Below are positions 16,751-29,250 of a DNA stretch of 64,000 bases, one piece after another. This DNA is from Erwinia sp. JUb26 (GTDB lineage Bacteria; Pseudomonadota; Gammaproteobacteria; Enterobacterales; Enterobacteriaceae): the NCBI RefSeq assembly GCF_003751505.1, contig NZ_RJVB01000004.1, positions 248,001 through 312,000 of the forward strand, given 5' to 3'. The notes beneath the pieces are model-generated. The model worked only from the letters and a program-made list of their open reading frames with translations, searched no databases and was not told the origin of the DNA. Within the stretch, counting starts at the first letter, position 1. Every line of letters starts with the position of its first letter. Both the position numbers and the translations under genes were made by a program.

Positions 16751-17518
16751 TCAGTTCATTACCAGCCCGCCATCCACATTCAGCGTTTGTCCGGTAACAA
16801 ATTCGCTCCAGTCCGACGCCAGGAACAGCACCGGCCCGGTGATATCCTCCACGCCTGCCACCCGCCTGAGCGGGGTTTGTGCCTCCAGCGCTGCGCGGAC
16901 ATCCTGCCGCGTTGTGCGGCTGGCATCCGTTGGGTAAACCAGCCCGGGCGCCACGCAGTTGACGCGAATACCCAGCGGACCCAGCTCGGCCGCCAGCGTG
17001 CGGCTGAAGCCGATCAGCGCCGCCTTGGCGGTAATGTAGTCGTGATAGGGAACGGACGGGCGGGCAACCAGATCGCTGACCAGATTGACGATGCTGCCGC
17101 GCGTGCGGGACCGCATCAGCGGCAGCGCGGCCTGGCAGACCTGATACGCCGCGCCGACCGCGCCGTCAAACTGCGTCTGCCAGGCGGACCACGGCGTTTC
17201 CCAGAAGCGCGGGCGGTTATCGGTATCGAAAACGTAAGGCGCAAAGGCGTTATTGACCACCGCATCCAGGCGGCCGCAAGACGTGGCGATGCGATCCATC
17301 AGCGCGGCCACCTGTTCCGCCGAGGTGACATCGGCCTGGACGGCCAGCGCTTCCCCGCCCAGCGCCCGGCATTCTGCCACCACCTCCCCGGCGGCGGCGG
17401 CATTACGCAGGTAGTTCACTACCACCAGCGCCCCTTCGGCGGCAAAGGCTTTGGCGATCGCCGCGCCGATTCCCCGGCTGGCACCGCTGACCAGGATTGT
17501 ACGATTGGCAAATTTCAC
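16751..17518 (-). CDS. Short-chain dehydrogenase/reductase, last gene of the TPP-riboswitch operon
   Basis: NAD(P)-dependent oxidoreductase of the classical SDR family, 255 residues. The cofactor loop is SGASRGIGAA (residues 11-20). The catalytic set is S148, Y161 and K165 (YITAK). The usual NNAG is NNAF (89-92). Family automatic names tend to be '3-oxoacyl-ACP reductase', but nothing here points to fatty-acid elongation. It overlaps the stop of the binding protein by four bases, so it belongs to the operon that begins with LuxE and LuxC homologues. An inferred role is to reduce the aldehyde made by the LuxE/LuxC pair to an alcohol; the reverse direction is also possible. Confidence 0.85.
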   Translation of the reverse strand: MKFANRTILVSGASRGIGAAIAKAFAAEGALVVVNYLRNAAAAGEVVAECRALGGEALAVQADVTSAEQVAALMDRIATSCGRLDAVVNNAFAPYVFDTDNRPRFWETPWSAWQTQFDGAVGAAYQVCQAALPLMRSRTRGSIVNLVSDLVARPSVPYHDYITAKAALIGFSRTLAAELGPLGIRVNCVAPGLVYPTDASRTTRQDVRAALEAQTPLRRVAGVEDITGPVLFLASDWSEFVTGQTLNVDGGLVMN

Positions 17519-18519
17519 TGGGCGGCTCCGTTCGGGATCAGGTCGGATTTCACCACCTCACTCATATCCAGCGAGCGTGAAATGATTCCAAGGCGGGTAA
17601 AGGCATCCGCGCCCTGCTGCATCAGTGCCATATCGAAATGCCCCAGCCCCGCTTTTTGCGTGGTGGCGGAAACGCTGGAGAGATTACGCAGCTTAATCAC
17701 TTCGAGGTTGATCGCCTCATCCCGTCCGTTAATCGCCCGGGTCACGGCAATTTTTGCCGCTTCCTGCGGTTCAGCAATCATCCACGCGGCGCTGTCGCGA
17801 TACGCACTCAGAAAGCGCGTCAGCAGCGGTTTTTTCGTCCGCCAGGTCTGCTCGGTGACCACAAAGATATCGCTGGGCACGTTGAGGTAGTCTTTCACCT
17901 CGATCACATTGACCTCCGGCAGCCCCTTGAGGCGGCCCGTCAGCAGGCCGGTATCGGTGGCGGCGGTGGCATCCACCTGTCCCTGGATCAGCGGCGCGAA
18001 GTTCAGCAGCCCGGTGACTTCCAGCTTCACGTCGGCTTCGCCCATGCCCGCCTGGTTCAGCAGCACCTGCAGGTTCTGCCGCGTACCGCTGGACAGGCTG
18101 TAAACGCCAATCCGCTTGCCCTTCAGATCGGCAGGCCTGGTGATGCCGGACGCTTTTGGTGCCACCACGTTGAACACGTTCTGCGGATAGATATTGTAAA
18201 TCGCGATCAGCTTCTCCCCTTTATCCAGAGCGTGATAGAAGGAGGCCGGATCGGTGAAGGCAACGTCCGCCCTACCGGTCAGCATGGTCTGGATGGCCGA
18301 AGCACCGCCGGTGCCGGGCACGTAATCCAGCGCGATGCCCTGCTTTTTAAAGAACCCTTTATCCGGTTCGGCCAGCAGGTTGGTGATTTCGCTAATCGGC
18401 TGGCTCCAGCCCGCCACGGTGACGGTTTCTTCGCCGTGCGCCAGCGCGGGCAGGCTGCCGAACAGCAGGCCAAAAACGAGGGAGAACGACGAGCTAAGAC
18501 GGCAGAACGGTCGGGACAT
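17515..18519 (-). CDS. NMT1/THI5-like ABC transporter substrate-binding protein
   Basis: Periplasmic binding protein of the SsuA/NrtA/ThiY group, 334 residues. It has a signal peptide ending ...GSLPALA near residue 27, then VTVAGWSQPISEITNLLAEPDKGFFKKQG in typical NMT1-family arrangement, a GGASAIQTMLTGRADVAF ligand-site region and LKGKRIGVYSLSSGTRQNL. ThiY homologues bind pyrimidine precursors of thiamin, while others bind sulfonates or nitrate. The TPP riboswitch in front of the operon makes a thiamin-related ligand the best inference. It is next to its own permease and ATPase. The ligand itself is unknown. Confidence 0.85.
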   Translation of the reverse strand: MSRPFCRLSSSFSLVFGLLFGSLPALAHGEETVTVAGWSQPISEITNLLAEPDKGFFKKQGIALDYVPGTGGASAIQTMLTGRADVAFTDPASFYHALDKGEKLIAIYNIYPQNVFNVVAPKASGITRPADLKGKRIGVYSLSSGTRQNLQVLLNQAGMGEADVKLEVTGLLNFAPLIQGQVDATAATDTGLLTGRLKGLPEVNVIEVKDYLNVPSDIFVVTEQTWRTKKPLLTRFLSAYRDSAAWMIAEPQEAAKIAVTRAINGRDEAINLEVIKLRNLSSVSATTQKAGLGHFDMALMQQGADAFTRLGIISRSLDMSEVVKSDLIPNGAAQ

Positions 18520-18520
18520 T

Positions 18521-19270
18521 TTAATGATTCCTGTGATGGCGCAGCAGAACGCGTTCCAGCGTCAGCGCGGCGTGATAAAAAAGCATTCCGAGCACGGTGA
18601 TAACGACCAGCAGGGCAAACATCAGCGCCGAATCCATCACCCCCTGTGCGGCGATGATCGATGCCCCCAGCCCGGCGCGACCGCCGATAAACTCACCGAC
18701 GACGGCCCCGACCAGCGCCAGCACTACCGCCATCCGCAGACCGGCGAGAATCACCGGCAGCGCGGTGGGCAGCTTCAGCCGCCAGAGCGTTTGCAGGCGC
18801 GTTGCCCCGAGCATGCGGAACAGTTCAAGGCGGGCGGGATCGACCCGCGTCAGGCCAACCACGGTGTTTTCCATCAGCGGGAAGAAGCAGATCAGGGCGG
18901 TGATTACCACCGTTGAGGTCATACCGAAACCGAACCAAATAATAAACAGCGGGCCGAGCGCCAGTTTGGGGATCACCTGGCTGGCGACGATATACGGGTG
19001 CAGCAGCCGCCGCAGAAAGCCAACCTCAGCCAGCACGATTCCAACCGGCAGGCCGATGGCGCAGCCCAGCGCCAGGCCGAAGGACATCTCCAGCGCGGTG
19101 GTAAAAATATGCGGCCACAGCCGTCCGCTGGCGAGTTCCTGCCACAGGGTCTGGTAAACCTGGCCGGGGGCGGGGACCACCAGCGGGGAGACCCCACCCA
19201 TGCGGCAGGCCAGTTCCCAGCCCGCCAGCAGGATCAGCAGCAGCAGGATCGCGCAGAGCCTGGCCCTCAT
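18521..19270 (-). CDS. ABC transporter permease (ThiX/SsuC-like)
   Basis: Inner-membrane permease of the nitrate/sulfonate/ThiX class, 249 residues with about six membrane segments. The cytoplasmic EAA loop reads FRMLGATRLQTLWRLKLPTA followed by LPVILAGLRMA, the normal pattern. I start it at the ATG at 19270, which overlaps the stop of the ATPase gene as ATGA, instead of the frame's earlier start 12 codons upstream inside the ATPase. The stop is one base before the binding-protein start. Works with the neighbouring ATPase and NMT1-type binding protein. Confidence 0.88.
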   Translation of the reverse strand: MRARLCAILLLLILLAGWELACRMGGVSPLVVPAPGQVYQTLWQELASGRLWPHIFTTALEMSFGLALGCAIGLPVGIVLAEVGFLRRLLHPYIVASQVIPKLALGPLFIIWFGFGMTSTVVITALICFFPLMENTVVGLTRVDPARLELFRMLGATRLQTLWRLKLPTALPVILAGLRMAVVLALVGAVVGEFIGGRAGLGASIIAAQGVMDSALMFALLVVITVLGMLFYHAALTLERVLLRHHRNH

Positions 19271-20028
19271 CGCAGACTGTCCATGGCGTACCGCAGCTGC
19301 CTGCACAAAGCGTTAAAGGGCTGACCGTAGCGAATATCGCCAGTGCGCGGCCTCGGCAGGTCGATATCCAGCACGAAGTTCACCCGCCCCTCGTCCATCA
19401 CGGCAACGCGGTGCGCCATATACACCGCTTCGGCAATATCGTGGGTGACAAATAGCGCGGCGATCTGCTGCCTGTTGCAGAGCACCAGCAGGTCGTCCTG
19501 CAGCTGTTCGCGGGTCAGGGCGTCCAGCGCGGCAAACGGCTCATCCAGCAACAGCAGGTGCGGGTCGCCGATCAGTGCGCGGGCGATGGCAACCCGGCTT
19601 TGCTGCCCACCGGACAGCTGGTGCGGGAAGCGCTCCGCCAGGTGGCCAATACCCAGCAGGTTCAGCAGTTCCACGGCTTTCTCAACGCCCTGCTTCTGCT
19701 GACGTTTAAGGGCCAGCGGCAGCAGCACGTTGTCCAGCACGCTCAGCCACGCCAGCAGCGTCGGTGACTGAAAAACAAAGCCGGTGGACGGATCCGGGCC
19801 GTGCAGCGCCCGCCCGTTCACCCGGATGTGGCCTTCGTCCGGCGAAAGCAGTCCGGCCGTCAGTTTCAGCAGCGTTGTTTTGCCGCAGCCGCTACGGCCA
19901 ACCAGGCAGTGAAAGGCCCCGCGTGGGATGTGCCAGCTGACCCGATCCACCACCGGCTGCGCCCTGCCGTGGGAAAAACGCACCTCGTCAATCGCGACAA
20001 ACGCCGCAGCGTCAGCATCAGTCGGCAT
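19267..20028 (-). CDS. ABC transporter ATP-binding protein (ThiZ/SsuB-like)
   Basis: Cytoplasmic ATPase of the nitrate/sulfonate/ThiZ class, 253 residues. Walker A is GRSGCGKTTL, the ABC signature is LSGGQQSRVAIARAL, Walker B is LLLLDEPFAALD and the switch histidine is in FVTHD. The start is placed at the ATG at 20028 (MPTDADAAAF), overlapping the LuxC-like stop by 11 bp; the frame is open further upstream within the LuxC gene but lacks family similarity. It powers the permease and binding protein downstream in the same operon. Confidence 0.88.
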   Translation of the reverse strand: MPTDADAAAFVAIDEVRFSHGRAQPVVDRVSWHIPRGAFHCLVGRSGCGKTTLLKLTAGLLSPDEGHIRVNGRALHGPDPSTGFVFQSPTLLAWLSVLDNVLLPLALKRQQKQGVEKAVELLNLLGIGHLAERFPHQLSGGQQSRVAIARALIGDPHLLLLDEPFAALDALTREQLQDDLLVLCNRQQIAALFVTHDIAEAVYMAHRVAVMDEGRVNFVLDIDLPRPRTGDIRYGQPFNALCRQLRYAMDSLR

Positions 20029-21466
20029 AGGCGGCGTACTCCTCGCTGGCGGCCTCGGCGGCCCCGTCGATCTCGGTGACGGTAACCAGATCGAGCAGAC
20101 TGAAACGGCCATCGTGATGCCAGCCCGCTTCCGGCAAGGTCATGGCACCCAGCGCGGCGATGCGGGTCACACCGACCTGCCCCAGCCTGCCTGCGAGGGT
20201 GAACAGCTCCTCCGGCGAAGCCGCCACGCCGGCGGTCTGCAAAAAGCGGCGCTGCGGGGTGATCAGGCCAGTCACCTCGTCCAGCGAGTCAACCGGCACG
20301 ATTTTCACCGTGCGGGCGAGCGCCGAAGGCGACAGCGGTTCAGCCTGGTGGGCATACACCACCGCCCAGCCGGCGGCCGGATCGCCAAACAGCGTGCGGT
20401 CACCGCTCAGCGCGCGCATTTCTTCCGCGCTGCGCCAGGTGGCAACGGCGTTCTGTTCAGCCAGTGTCAGCGCGCCACGCGGGTATTTGCGCTCCAGCGC
20501 GGACAGCGCGTGGGCGACGCGGGCAGCAAATTCTTCGGGCGAGAGCGTGCCGCCGCGCTCCACGAACAGCATCTGCGGGGAATAACAGCCTGCCTGGTCG
20601 TAGCGCATCACGTCAAAAGCCGCGCGGCGAGCCAGATCCGGGCCTTTACGGCTGTCCAGCGCCGAGCGTGAAACCAGCCCGAAGCTGATTTTATGACCGT
20701 GAGGCAAAAATCGCGTGGTGACCGGCAGCCGCTGCCGGATGGCCGCCAGGGTCGGGTTGCTGCCGTAGGCAAGTACGGTATCCGCCTGCCGCAGCCAGGC
20801 GTTTTCGGTGGCCATTTCGCCGCCCTTCCACCAGACCACCGCCAGGCAGTCGCCGAGTTTCGGGTCGACTTCCGCCAGCAGCTGCGCGAACCAGCCCGCC
20901 ATCAGCGGCTCGCTGCCCGGCAGCTTGCCGAGGGTTCCGGCCTTGACCAGCAGGCCGCCGATCAGGCTCCACAGCGGCAGGCCCGGAACATTTCCTGCCC
21001 AGATATGCAGCAGCAGCGACGGGCCGTACGCGCGGGCAAAGCCGCCTTTTGGCCGTGGCTGGAAATCGTCGAGCATTTGCGGATCGGCGAAATCCTCGGC
21101 CAGAAACCGCTTCAGCTGCGGCTGGCGAAAGGTTTTCAGGTAGCCGGTCAGCCCGAGGCGGATCGTCTCAGCGTCATAGCCGGTGACCAGCGGCAGCAGC
21201 CGTTCGGCGCGGATACGCAGCGGATGGCTGCGGTCCAGCAGCTTCGCCACCGCCCGGTCGATGATGGTTACGATCTGCGCGACGCTGAGCGTGCTGAGGT
21301 AGTCGCGGGCATGGCGGCGGATGTGCGTGGACAGCGCCTCAATCTGCGCTTCGGTCAGCTCCGGTACGCAGACATCCAGGCTTTCGCCATCGCGGCGGAA
21401 GTGCAGGCTGCGCCACTGCACCTCGCTGGGGTCCAGGCCCGGCAGATAACCGGCGACCTCCCTCAC
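20018..21466 (-). CDS. LuxC-like acyl-CoA/acyl-protein reductase
   Basis: Homologue of LuxC, the NADPH-dependent reductase that turns activated fatty acyl groups into aldehydes in luminous bacteria. It has 482 residues, the LuxC length. The aldehyde-dehydrogenase-like fold is recognisable by IWAGNVPGLPLWSLIGGLL (cofactor region near 155-173) and by the catalytic cysteine in YDQAGCYSPQ (C294). The start is a GTG that overlaps the LuxE-like stop by four bases (GTGA). No luxA, luxB or luxD is present, so light production is not its role. With LuxE it should reduce a carboxylate to an aldehyde; the TPP riboswitch points to a thiamin-related acid, which is inference. Confidence 0.87.
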   Translation of the reverse strand: MREVAGYLPGLDPSEVQWRSLHFRRDGESLDVCVPELTEAQIEALSTHIRRHARDYLSTLSVAQIVTIIDRAVAKLLDRSHPLRIRAERLLPLVTGYDAETIRLGLTGYLKTFRQPQLKRFLAEDFADPQMLDDFQPRPKGGFARAYGPSLLLHIWAGNVPGLPLWSLIGGLLVKAGTLGKLPGSEPLMAGWFAQLLAEVDPKLGDCLAVVWWKGGEMATENAWLRQADTVLAYGSNPTLAAIRQRLPVTTRFLPHGHKISFGLVSRSALDSRKGPDLARRAAFDVMRYDQAGCYSPQMLFVERGGTLSPEEFAARVAHALSALERKYPRGALTLAEQNAVATWRSAEEMRALSGDRTLFGDPAAGWAVVYAHQAEPLSPSALARTVKIVPVDSLDEVTGLITPQRRFLQTAGVAASPEELFTLAGRLGQVGVTRIAALGAMTLPEAGWHHDGRFSLLDLVTVTEIDGAAEAASEEYAAYAD

Positions 21467-22548
21467 GGCGTCACCTGCGCCGCGCGGAGAAAATCTTCCA
21501 TCGCCAGCGAACAGCCGCGGGCATCCGCTCCGGCCACCCGGCCCAGCAGCCGGAAACCGCCCGCAACTCTCACGCCCGCATCTTCGGTCAGGATGGCGGC
21601 GGCACAGTTAAAGTGCGCTAGATCGTGATGCACCAGCACGCCAACCTCCCCCTCGGGGACATCCTCTCCGGTCAGCGGATTGACCACGCGGGATCGGATC
21701 CAGTGCGGGCCGGATTTCACCGGCGGGCAGACGGCGTTACCGTCGTCGTAGAACTGGCTGCTCAGTTCGGTCATGCCGTACATATTGATGCAGTGGCTGC
21801 GCGGTACGCCAAGCGCTTCCGCCAGCGCATCATAGAATTCGTCCGGCTGAATTTCCCGCGACTGGCCTTTAAACCCGCCGGTATCAAGAATTCGGCTGCC
21901 TGCGGGCAGGCGGAAGCGGCGCTGCTGGCGCTGGATCTCATCCAGCAGGTGGACAAAGCTGTAGCTGGCCCCCAGCAGCGCATAGGGTTCGCCGCTGCTT
22001 TCGGCATTTTCCAGTGCGGCAAACAGGCGCGTCAGTTCCAGCCCGCTGTCGGCGCTGACCAGCACCTCGCTGTCCGCGGTACCAAATTCCGCCACCGCCA
22101 GGGTCAGATAGTGCGCCAGCGAAGAGTTGGGCAGCGTGCGGTTATCCGGAAACAGGATCCCCATGCGGATGCGTTCCGTTCCGGCCATAAAGCGGTGGCG
22201 GAAGTTCAGACGCATTGACTGCTTCCATACGTCCAGCGTGGGATGGTAGCTGCGGCCCCGAACGCTGCCGGTGGTGCCGCTGGTCATAAACACCGTGGAG
22301 ATTTCTTCCACCGGGCGACAGCTGAGCGTCAGATCCTTGAAGGCGGTGATCGGCACGGCGGGGATTTTCTGCCAGCTTTTTACCGTCAGCGGGGTGCGCC
22401 CTCGCTGGATGGCGAAGCGACGATAGGAAAGATTGTGTTCAAACTGATAGCTGAAGATATCCAGCGCCAGCCGGTTGAAGTCGGCGTCGGTGGTATCGTC
22501 GCGCTGCAGAAAGGTCAGTAAGGCTGAAATGATTGCCGCTTCGGTCAT
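21463..22548 (-). CDS. LuxE-like acyl-protein synthetase (carboxylate-activating)
   Basis: Homologue of LuxE, which adenylates a carboxylic acid with ATP and holds the acyl group on a cysteine before passing it to LuxC. About 361 residues from the ATG at 22548, which has GGAAAC at suitable distance; the ATG at 22560 is an alternative. The AMP-forming motif is MTSGTTGSVRG, and MYGMTELSSQFYDDG is the second adenylation motif. A cysteine in ARGCSLAMEDF lies 15 residues from the C-terminus, where LuxE carries its acyl-accepting cysteine. First gene of the operon, directly behind a TPP riboswitch. Substrate is not determined. Confidence 0.86.
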   Translation of the reverse strand: MTEAAIISALLTFLQRDDTTDADFNRLALDIFSYQFEHNLSYRRFAIQRGRTPLTVKSWQKIPAVPITAFKDLTLSCRPVEEISTVFMTSGTTGSVRGRSYHPTLDVWKQSMRLNFRHRFMAGTERIRMGILFPDNRTLPNSSLAHYLTLAVAEFGTADSEVLVSADSGLELTRLFAALENAESSGEPYALLGASYSFVHLLDEIQRQQRRFRLPAGSRILDTGGFKGQSREIQPDEFYDALAEALGVPRSHCINMYGMTELSSQFYDDGNAVCPPVKSGPHWIRSRVVNPLTGEDVPEGEVGVLVHHDLAHFNCAAAILTEDAGVRVAGGFRLLGRVAGADARGCSLAMEDFLRAAQVTP

Positions 22549-22630
22549 GTCCGTTTCCATCCAGGTATTGTGCAACGGCTCCCCGGTAAAGCATGGAGAG
22601 CGAGATCTGTCCGCTGCAAAGCACAAAGAT

Positions 22631-22658
22631 GGAAAAAGGGCGTGTGGGCACCCATTGT
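22631..22658 (-). terminator. Possible riboswitch-controlled attenuator
   Basis: On the minus strand, just after the aptamer, GGGTG and CACGCCC can pair imperfectly and are followed by TTTTT. This could be the terminator of the expression platform. The stem is short and bulged, and the roughly 80 bases to the luxE-like start could instead control translation. Confidence 0.4.
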
Positions 22659-22768
22659 CCCGCATCCCTACGCCGGTATTAGCCGGATCAGGTTCGGAGG
22701 GTCACCACGCTGTCTGAACGTATCAAACCGGTGGAATCTCAGCCCCCTGACAGGGCACCCCTTGGAAC
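22655..22768 (-). promoter_or_regulatory. Thiamin pyrophosphate (TPP) riboswitch
   Basis: The minus strand carries the conserved thi-box elements in order: GGGGTGCCC, then GGCTGAGA, then a variable arm, then ACCC and GAACCTGATCCGG, then TAATACCGGCGTAGGGA. The core spans about 22660-22765. This is a standard TPP aptamer, positioned about 110 bases before the LuxE-like gene in the same orientation. Known members shut off expression when thiamin pyrophosphate is abundant, so the operon should be on in thiamin shortage. Confidence 0.96.
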
Positions 22769-23185
22769 AAGGCGCAGTCTAGGGCGCGCGTGGACCGGGT
22801 GTCAAGATGATTACAATTCGTCACAAACTGTCGGGTTTAAGAGGCTGGAGGATCCGTTTCTTCGCGGCTGGCGGGTGAAACGGAACGGGTAATTAATTCC
22901 GGAGGGTGATGGATAATATGTCTTTCCAGGCAGAAGTGTTTATTTTATTAAACAGAGAATAAGATTATTCCTGCCTTGATTCTGTCTTCAACCTCATCAA
23001 CTCATTCACTTTTTCTTGAGTTATCGCTTCCCTGTTTAATTAATTACGCACCTGGGTTCGGATAATTCTCATAATGCTGTCAGGTAAGGATTATTTATAG
23101 GGGAGGACCAATTTTTCCGTGTAACTTTATGTATACAAAAAGACGTAAAAAGACATGGATTATTACAAACAAAGGGCTTTCATTA
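22769..23185. other. Divergent intergenic region (417 bp)
   Basis: This stretch separates the leftward TPP-riboswitch operon from the rightward lipoprotein–Slam genes, so it must hold both promoters. It becomes AT-rich toward the lipoprotein gene. No gene, terminator or convincing regulator site could be defined; an AT-rich GATAATTCTCATAAT segment near 23060 is only loosely Fur-like. Confidence 0.5.
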
Positions 23186-29029: not shown

Positions 29030-29250
29030 GCTTTCGTCCCGGAGCACGCGGGCTGGGGGTTGCTCCACCTGGACGGGTCCTCGCGCCGCTACGCGGTCCC
29101 ATCACTGCATTCGTCAGCCTGACGAACCGGCACAGACGGTCCATCCCTGGCCCGGCGGTGCCTTTCGCCCTCTTCCCTGAGGGCGAATCCGGGCTTCCTT
29201 ATTTCGTTCTGCGCTGCGGATTGTCCTGGTGAAGCAGCCCCCAGCCCACT
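29030..29250. repeat. Structured GC-rich intergenic element, possible dispersed repeat
   Basis: About 220 bp after grxB are rich in GC and in perfect inverted repeats: TTCGTCAG-C-CTGACGAA at 29110-29126 and a 9-bp stem TTCGCCCTC/GAGGGCGAA at 29164-29187, plus a looser dyad near 29075-29100. Neither strand has a credible gene. From memory, similar sequences are often mis-called as small proteins in related genomes, which would suit a repeat family; this needs a genome search. Confidence 0.4.

Follow-up and report, generated by a model that had tools for sequence, protein, structure and literature searches.

The importer ThiXYZ takes up N-formyl-4-amino-5-aminomethyl-2-methylpyrimidine (FAMP) with the help of its binding protein ThiY (3IX1) and acts together with YlmB/TenA salvage. 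LuxE and LuxC constitute the fatty acid reductase of bioluminescent bacteria (7XC6). EhpF (3HGU/3HGV) is a further close system, which belongs to phenazine antibiotic biosynthesis and has a phenazine substrate, unlike the locus described here; we know of no thiamin pyrophosphate (TPP) switch for EhpF. Here we analyze an operon on the minus strand of a 64,000-nucleotide stretch of Erwinia sp. JUb26 (GCF_003751505.1, contig NZ_RJVB01000004.1, positions 248,001 to 312,000), the whole of which is called the window. In this operon a TPP riboswitch precedes genes for a LuxE-like synthetase, a LuxC-like reductase, an ATP-binding cassette (ABC) importer and a short-chain dehydrogenase/reductase (SDR). 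The binding protein of this importer is just 17% identical to ThiY over the aligned part and the operon lacks TenA, having a carboxylate-reducing LuxE/LuxC/SDR module in its place. Both families and their conserved cysteines are shared with the bioluminescent system, whereas scores to the equivalog models are weak and a TPP riboswitch, an importer and an SDR are found alongside. According to the excerpted text of PMC11452348, ThiV of SAR11 is a TPP-riboswitch-linked answer to auxotrophy for 4-amino-5-hydroxymethyl-2-methylpyrimidine (HMP), as the operon may be; however, ThiV imports HMP itself without any reduction. The operon system is real and widespread and, judged from sequence, most likely represents a new salvage branch that starts from a pyrimidine acid.

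A preliminary description of the window had called a TPP aptamer followed by six genes on the same strand, and Rfam, open reading frames (ORFs) and Pfam families agree with this order; coordinates and gene calls were correct to within a few bases. The score of the aptamer lies above the RF00059 gathering score of 54.3 bits. Overlaps of 4 bp (luxE/luxC), 11 bp (luxC/ATPase), 4 bp (ATPase/permease) and 4 bp (binding protein/SDR) join the genes, and permease and binding protein are separated by a 1-bp gap. Start codons of the six ORFs were picked by us where alternatives existed; the luxE ORF as listed begins at 22665, within the aptamer, and the start taken was 22548.

A LuxC scan of GTDB genome contigs yielded 260 relatives, and locus counts given here cover the best 80 of them. 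The six-gene order was complete in 60 of the 80 loci, luxE-luxC-SDR occurred without importer in 14, and six ran into contig ends; median intergenic gaps across loci ranged from -4 to 12.5 bases. The importer-less loci were from four enterobacteria and ten metagenome-assembled genomes (MAGs), nine of the latter labelled Alphaproteobacteria or Rhodospirillaceae and one Flavobacteriales. For the riboswitch, a covariance model (R1) with 12 pairs only was built from seven TPP sites of the window's genome, including the window's own aptamer. A TPP match was present 5' of the operon in 76 of the 80 loci, at a median of 91.5 bases before luxE or, in L065 and L083, before thiD. No upstream match was obtained with R1, nor with Rfam at a lax threshold, in L027, L035, L079 and L087, the last of which is cut at luxC. 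Ten loci, chosen mostly for weak R1 scores, were rechecked with Rfam; four reached the gathering score (L028, L061, L066, L072) and six remained below it (L037, L041, L056, L058, L064, L086). Besides the operon matches, the sole R1 match at E<0.1 in 81 sources lies in L059, where thiC with its own TPP switch is located directly upstream of the operon. Because six-gene order and upstream TPP matches are retained in these proportions, the arrangement of luxE-luxC-importer-SDR behind a TPP switch is not due to chance.

The nearest relative found was Pantoea coffeiphila, with a LuxC 96% identical to that of the window. Hosts of the operon include Pantoea, Enterobacter, Azospirillum, Bosea, Methylobacterium, Polaromonas, Variovorax, Achromobacter and a Desulfosporosinus (G044); three ThiC matches occur in the latter genome, two of which lie side by side. 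A nucleotide search of 20,395 E. coli records gave no match, and clustering of neighbour genes returned mostly shadow ORFs and lineage-specific genes.

Table 1. Features of the TPP-linked luxE-luxC-importer-SDR locus in the window of Erwinia sp. JUb26.
Feature	Position	Strand	Evidence
Promoter-like site TTGACA-18-TAGACT, directly 5' of aptamer	22776..22805	-	Consensus scan, 10/12 matches
TPP riboswitch aptamer	22648..22772	-	Rfam RF00059, 68.7 bits, E 2.2e-11
Terminator-like hairpin and T run 3' of aptamer, possible expression platform	22638..22653	-	Scan, 5 pairs then TTTTT
luxE-like ANL acyl-adenylating / acyl-protein synthetase, 361 aa	21463..22548	-	PF04443 LuxE, 77.4 bits
luxC-like acyl-thioester reductase, 482 aa	20018..21466	-	PF05893 LuxC, 293 bits
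ABC importer ATPase	19267..20028	-	ABC_tran PF00005, 116 bits
ABC importer permease	18521..19270	-	BPD_transp_1 PF00528, 102 bits
Periplasmic binding protein, NMT1/THI5 (ThiY) type	17515..18519	-	NMT1/THI5, 158.6 bits
SDR, proposed aldehyde-to-alcohol step	16751..17518	-	adh_short, PF13561/PF00106

The LuxE and LuxC proteins of the window exceed the Pfam thresholds of 24.9 and 21 bits, respectively. Residue counts cover the sequences complete enough for alignment, the window included. The C-terminal cysteine of LuxE was found in 76 of 76 sequences and Cys294 of LuxC, which lines up with a cysteine of 7XC6 chain A, in 80 of 80. From the LuxE and LuxC families we presume that the former residue is the acyl carrier and that the latter has the role usual for its family. 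In the SDR, Tyr161 and Lys165 were present in 75 of 75 sequences, and the residue taken as catalytic Ser148 is a serine in 55 and a threonine in 20. Scores of 67.5 and 69.4 bits to the NCBIfam LuxE and LuxC equivalogs do not reach the cut-offs of 550 and 750, respectively. The only PDB chain found by the LuxE profile at E<0.001 is LuxE of 7XC6. In structure comparison the LuxE model was closest to phenylacetate-CoA ligases, and LuxE of 7XC6 was not among the 50 matches listed.

We consider it probable that the operon serves a TPP-repressed salvage of the oxidised pyrimidine half of thiamin, converting 4-amino-2-methylpyrimidine-5-carboxylate via the aldehyde to HMP. At low TPP, the riboswitch would permit expression of the operon, and the ThiY-like binding protein, permease and ATPase would import 4-amino-2-methylpyrimidine-5-carboxylic acid or a carboxylated pyrimidine very similar to it. 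LuxE would adenylate the carboxylate with ATP and transfer the acyl group to its C-terminal cysteine, from which LuxC would take it over on its own cysteine and, using NAD(P)H, reduce it to the 5-formylpyrimidine. The SDR would convert this aldehyde to HMP, to be phosphorylated twice by ThiD and joined to thiazole phosphate by ThiE. From the aptamer and the operon, their conservation with TPP matches, the fold resemblance, the conserved cysteines and the association with thiD and with thiC-less genomes, all of which are observed, we infer the exact substrate, the reaction directions, the cofactor and the off-state of the riboswitch. The more general proposal made for the window, a TPP-controlled import of an oxidised thiamin fragment followed by reduction of acid to aldehyde to alcohol, has good support from the conservation of the operon, its gene context and the folds.

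The importer itself bears on the nature of the substrate. The binding protein belongs to the NMT1/THI5 family, and its predicted structure has the ThiY fold; nearest to the model were ThiY, which binds pyrimidine, and a thiamin-binding protein. Relatives of the operon were also detected in 27 of 72,556 plasmid records, carried by 13 Pantoea, 9 Azospirillum, one Pseudomonas, one Priestia, Lactiplantibacillus plantarum, Levilactobacillus brevis and Niallia taxi. The Priestia plasmid has the complete six-gene operon, with a TPP match of 49 bits, under the gathering score. On the L. plantarum and L. brevis plasmids (10 and 21 kb) a TPP switch (67.6 bits) is followed by genes for an NCS2 permease, luxE, luxC and SDR, and these two cases count as one because their LuxC genes are nearly identical. 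On the Niallia taxi megaplasmid, tandem TPP switches (85.0 and 72.9 bits; L134, 4540-4836) precede thiW, an NCS2 permease gene, luxE, luxC and SDR. The LuxC proteins of the lactobacillus and Niallia plasmids are about 40% identical to that of the window, and the best score of their NCS2 permeases was to a xanthine permease model, below the cut-off of that model. Because a different, nucleobase-type importer stands under the same switch, these loci suggest that substrate import is part of the function and that the substrate is nucleobase-like. Separately, on the Pseudomonas silvicola megaplasmid (L132, 5949-9215) luxE, luxC and SDR are each broken over two frames, due to either decay or sequencing errors; an importer gene was not found there and the TPP match of 63.8 bits is above the gathering score. 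We lean slightly towards the wider view that LuxE-LuxC-SDR is a further general route to HMP, beside synthesis by ThiC and salvage by TenA, which would have been passed on horizontally among Pseudomonadota and Bacillota, small lactobacillus plasmids included, with interchangeable importers. On this view, luxE-luxC-SDR could even form the last part of a ThiC-independent pyrimidine synthesis in importer-less marine Alphaproteobacteria that lack thiC.

The loci without importer might instead reflect an internal repair, in which HMP or its aldehyde is oxidised in the cell, or 4-amino-5-aminomethyl-2-methylpyrimidine (AmMP) or FAMP is deaminated and oxidised, and luxE-luxC-SDR reduces the product back, the importer being an add-on for a related vitamer. 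One genome (G015) is in line with this, as its luxE-luxC-SDR locus has no importer and a TPP switch (66.0 bits) on another contig heads a separate operon of importer genes, with ATPase and binding protein 58% and 68% identical to those of the operon and a permease match also present. However, importer and enzymes are tightly coupled in most loci, and cells lacking thiC, TenA or importer would depend on an outside source all the same, which makes internal repair unlikely.

In order to see which half of thiamin is at stake, genome content was counted in 49 operon-bearing genomes (L012 is not among them). ThiC was present in 33 and absent in 16, and full ThiG (>300 bits) was found in 43. All 33 genomes with ThiC have ThiG as well, ten have ThiG without ThiC, and none has ThiC without ThiG. 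ThiD was over its cut-off in 47 genomes. ThiM reached its cut-off in just seven, a match of any kind at E<1e-20 being seen in 13, and is not present in every operon-bearing genome. Thiamin pyrophosphokinase (TPK_catalytic) was found in one, a count that does not cover the enterobacterial thiamin kinase ThiK. In the ten genomes with ThiG and without ThiC, ThiD was present in all and a ThiM or TPK match in none at the thresholds used, and a TenA match >40 bits was absent from five (G017, G030, G036, G040, G042). In one of these, the thiC-less G017 with its single 4.15-Mb contig, two TPP matches were found (113 of 261 first-look candidates scored). The first, which at 51.2 bits falls short of the gathering score, precedes thiO-thiG-thiE (thiO and thiE named by recognition), and the second, of 69.6 bits, precedes luxE-luxC-SDR; the natural reading would be that these two units cover thiazole and pyrimidine, respectively. 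Also, in L065 and L083 thiD sits between TPP switch and luxE, abutting the latter, and both ThiD proteins are HMP kinases by model score. Searches at E 1e-12 for ThiM, ThiG, ThiO, ThiE, TenA (two TenA-like queries) and ThiB gave none in the 80 loci plus L124. In G016, which has no ThiC match, a TPP match precedes an ABC importer of the branched-chain-amino-acid type, an SDR and a TenA-like or haem-oxygenase-like protein (L125, 1-6273; by recognition), possibly another uncharacterised TPP-controlled uptake unit. Of the three acids initially named as candidates for the operon, the pyrimidine carboxylate is favoured, because most of the 49 genomes lack ThiM and TPK, ThiD is nearly always there, thiD lies inside two loci and thiC-less genomes keep the operon, and the thiazole and thiamin acids are unlikely.

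4-Methyl-5-thiazoleacetic acid is a thiamin metabolite, and its reduction to hydroxyethylthiazole, followed by phosphorylation by ThiM, would involve identical chemistry. A thiazole substrate is also what the ThiW of the Niallia operon, a thiazole carrier component, could point to, if it does not simply complement the pathway; moreover, the window's genome has, by recognition, a thiM-like gene beside thiD, and a near relative of this genome, G001, is over the ThiM cut-off. However, the scarcity of ThiM argues against this substrate, and the need for thiazole is met because of full ThiG in most genomes. The loci have thiD in two cases but no thiM, thiG or thiO, and ThiY-type fold and NCS2 permeases suit a pyrimidine better, so that the thiazole branch has a small chance only. 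Even less probable is the import of intact thiamin acetic acid and its reduction to thiamin. Thiamin-bound 4NMY was the first match of Foldseek and the second of VIA-align for the binding-protein model, but thiamin would need phosphorylation, for which the TPK count offers little, ThiK being outside that count, and thiD inside two operons would be pointless.

The argument from genome content has its limits. Many of the ThiC-less genomes are MAGs, several of them closely related. In the order of G017, ThiC is missing in all but one of 27 genomes and LuxC is present in 18, and a tracking of ThiG by LuxC was not borne out there (ThiG in 10 of 18 genomes with and 2 of 9 without LuxC, p 0.22). HMP auxotrophy is common in general, as stated in the excerpts of PMC11452348. 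Finally, six of the 49 genomes lack full ThiG, of which G047 has ThiM and the other five do not.

TPP control of an acid-to-aldehyde-to-alcohol module would also be accounted for if, in TPP shortage, an aryl or indole acetate-type acid were reduced to an aldehyde otherwise made by a TPP-dependent decarboxylase, and the likeness of the LuxE model to phenylacetate-CoA ligases fits such a bypass; the thiD or thiC neighbours in three loci, the ThiY-type binding protein and the thiC-less genome in which only two TPP matches were found, one of them at this module, make it very improbable. An ordinary lux-type reductase of long-chain fatty acids under accidental TPP control, for which Pfam membership and the PDB hit to 7XC6 speak, can be practically discounted in view of the low equivalog scores and the TPP matches kept in relatives.

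The preliminary description knew of no pathway of this kind, and open-access full text likewise yielded no description of an acid-reducing thiamin salvage, subscription papers and supplements (e.g., of PMC3766115) being outside this search. In open-access text that names thiamin or TPP riboswitches alongside lux or acyl terms, luxC is, in the excerpts, only a reporter construct, and no paper among the matches listed has both a TPP riboswitch and an acyl-CoA reductase. 4-Amino-2-methylpyrimidine-5-carboxylic acid is a rat urinary thiamin metabolite according to the title of a paper cited by PMC7780320. The excerpts of PMC10470507, PMC10881298 and PMC11452348 name HMP as pyrimidine vitamer, those of the first two also AmMP and FAMP, and none of these excerpts mentions a pyrimidine carboxylic acid. 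The main texts of two TPP-regulon surveys contain no 'lux' (PMC3766115) and no 'luxe' (PMC2211319). The latter reports TPP switches ahead of genes without known function, which could include relatives of the operon.

In the scanned 701 bases, three promoter-like sites were seen where 0.6 were expected, which is no evidence of function, and one terminator-like hairpin compared to 0.6 expected in shuffles. The 41 bases around this hairpin fold with -11.5 kcal/mol, a weak signal (z -1.36), and folding of the whole leader showed no excess stability (z 0.36). With 150 of the 323 first-look candidates scored, the window's genome contains at least seven TPP matches. Behind them, with names given to the ORFs by recognition only, lie a tenA-like gene together with an ABC ATPase gene, thiC, the present operon, thiB, another TenA-like gene, thiM-thiD and thiO. 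The stretch with the first TenA-like gene (L001) also has an NMT1 binding protein and is separate from the operon; the second such gene is in L005, and four TenA-family matches occur in the near relative G001. Because TPP sites adjoin thiC, thiB, thiM-thiD, thiO and tenA-like genes, the window's genome looks thiamin-prototrophic, with the operon as one of several TPP-linked units. Elsewhere in the window (29106-29192, minus strand), a TwoAYGGAY RNA motif (RF01731, 47.2 bits) was detected, a structured RNA without known function.

If true, an acid-reducing branch would add a vitamer missing from the excerpted text of the pathway surveys PMC10470507 and PMC10881298, and the pyrimidine source of some thiC-less bacteria could be explained. 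It would give a new assignment to genes that currently carry the label acyl-CoA reductase or long-chain fatty acid-CoA ligase, and it would place a reductase for heteroaromatic carboxylates under a simple vitamin switch, of use for enzyme discovery. Should LuxE-LuxC-SDR be a general route to HMP, soil, sea and food would be expected to hold much oxidised pyrimidine vitamer that has so far escaped measurement.

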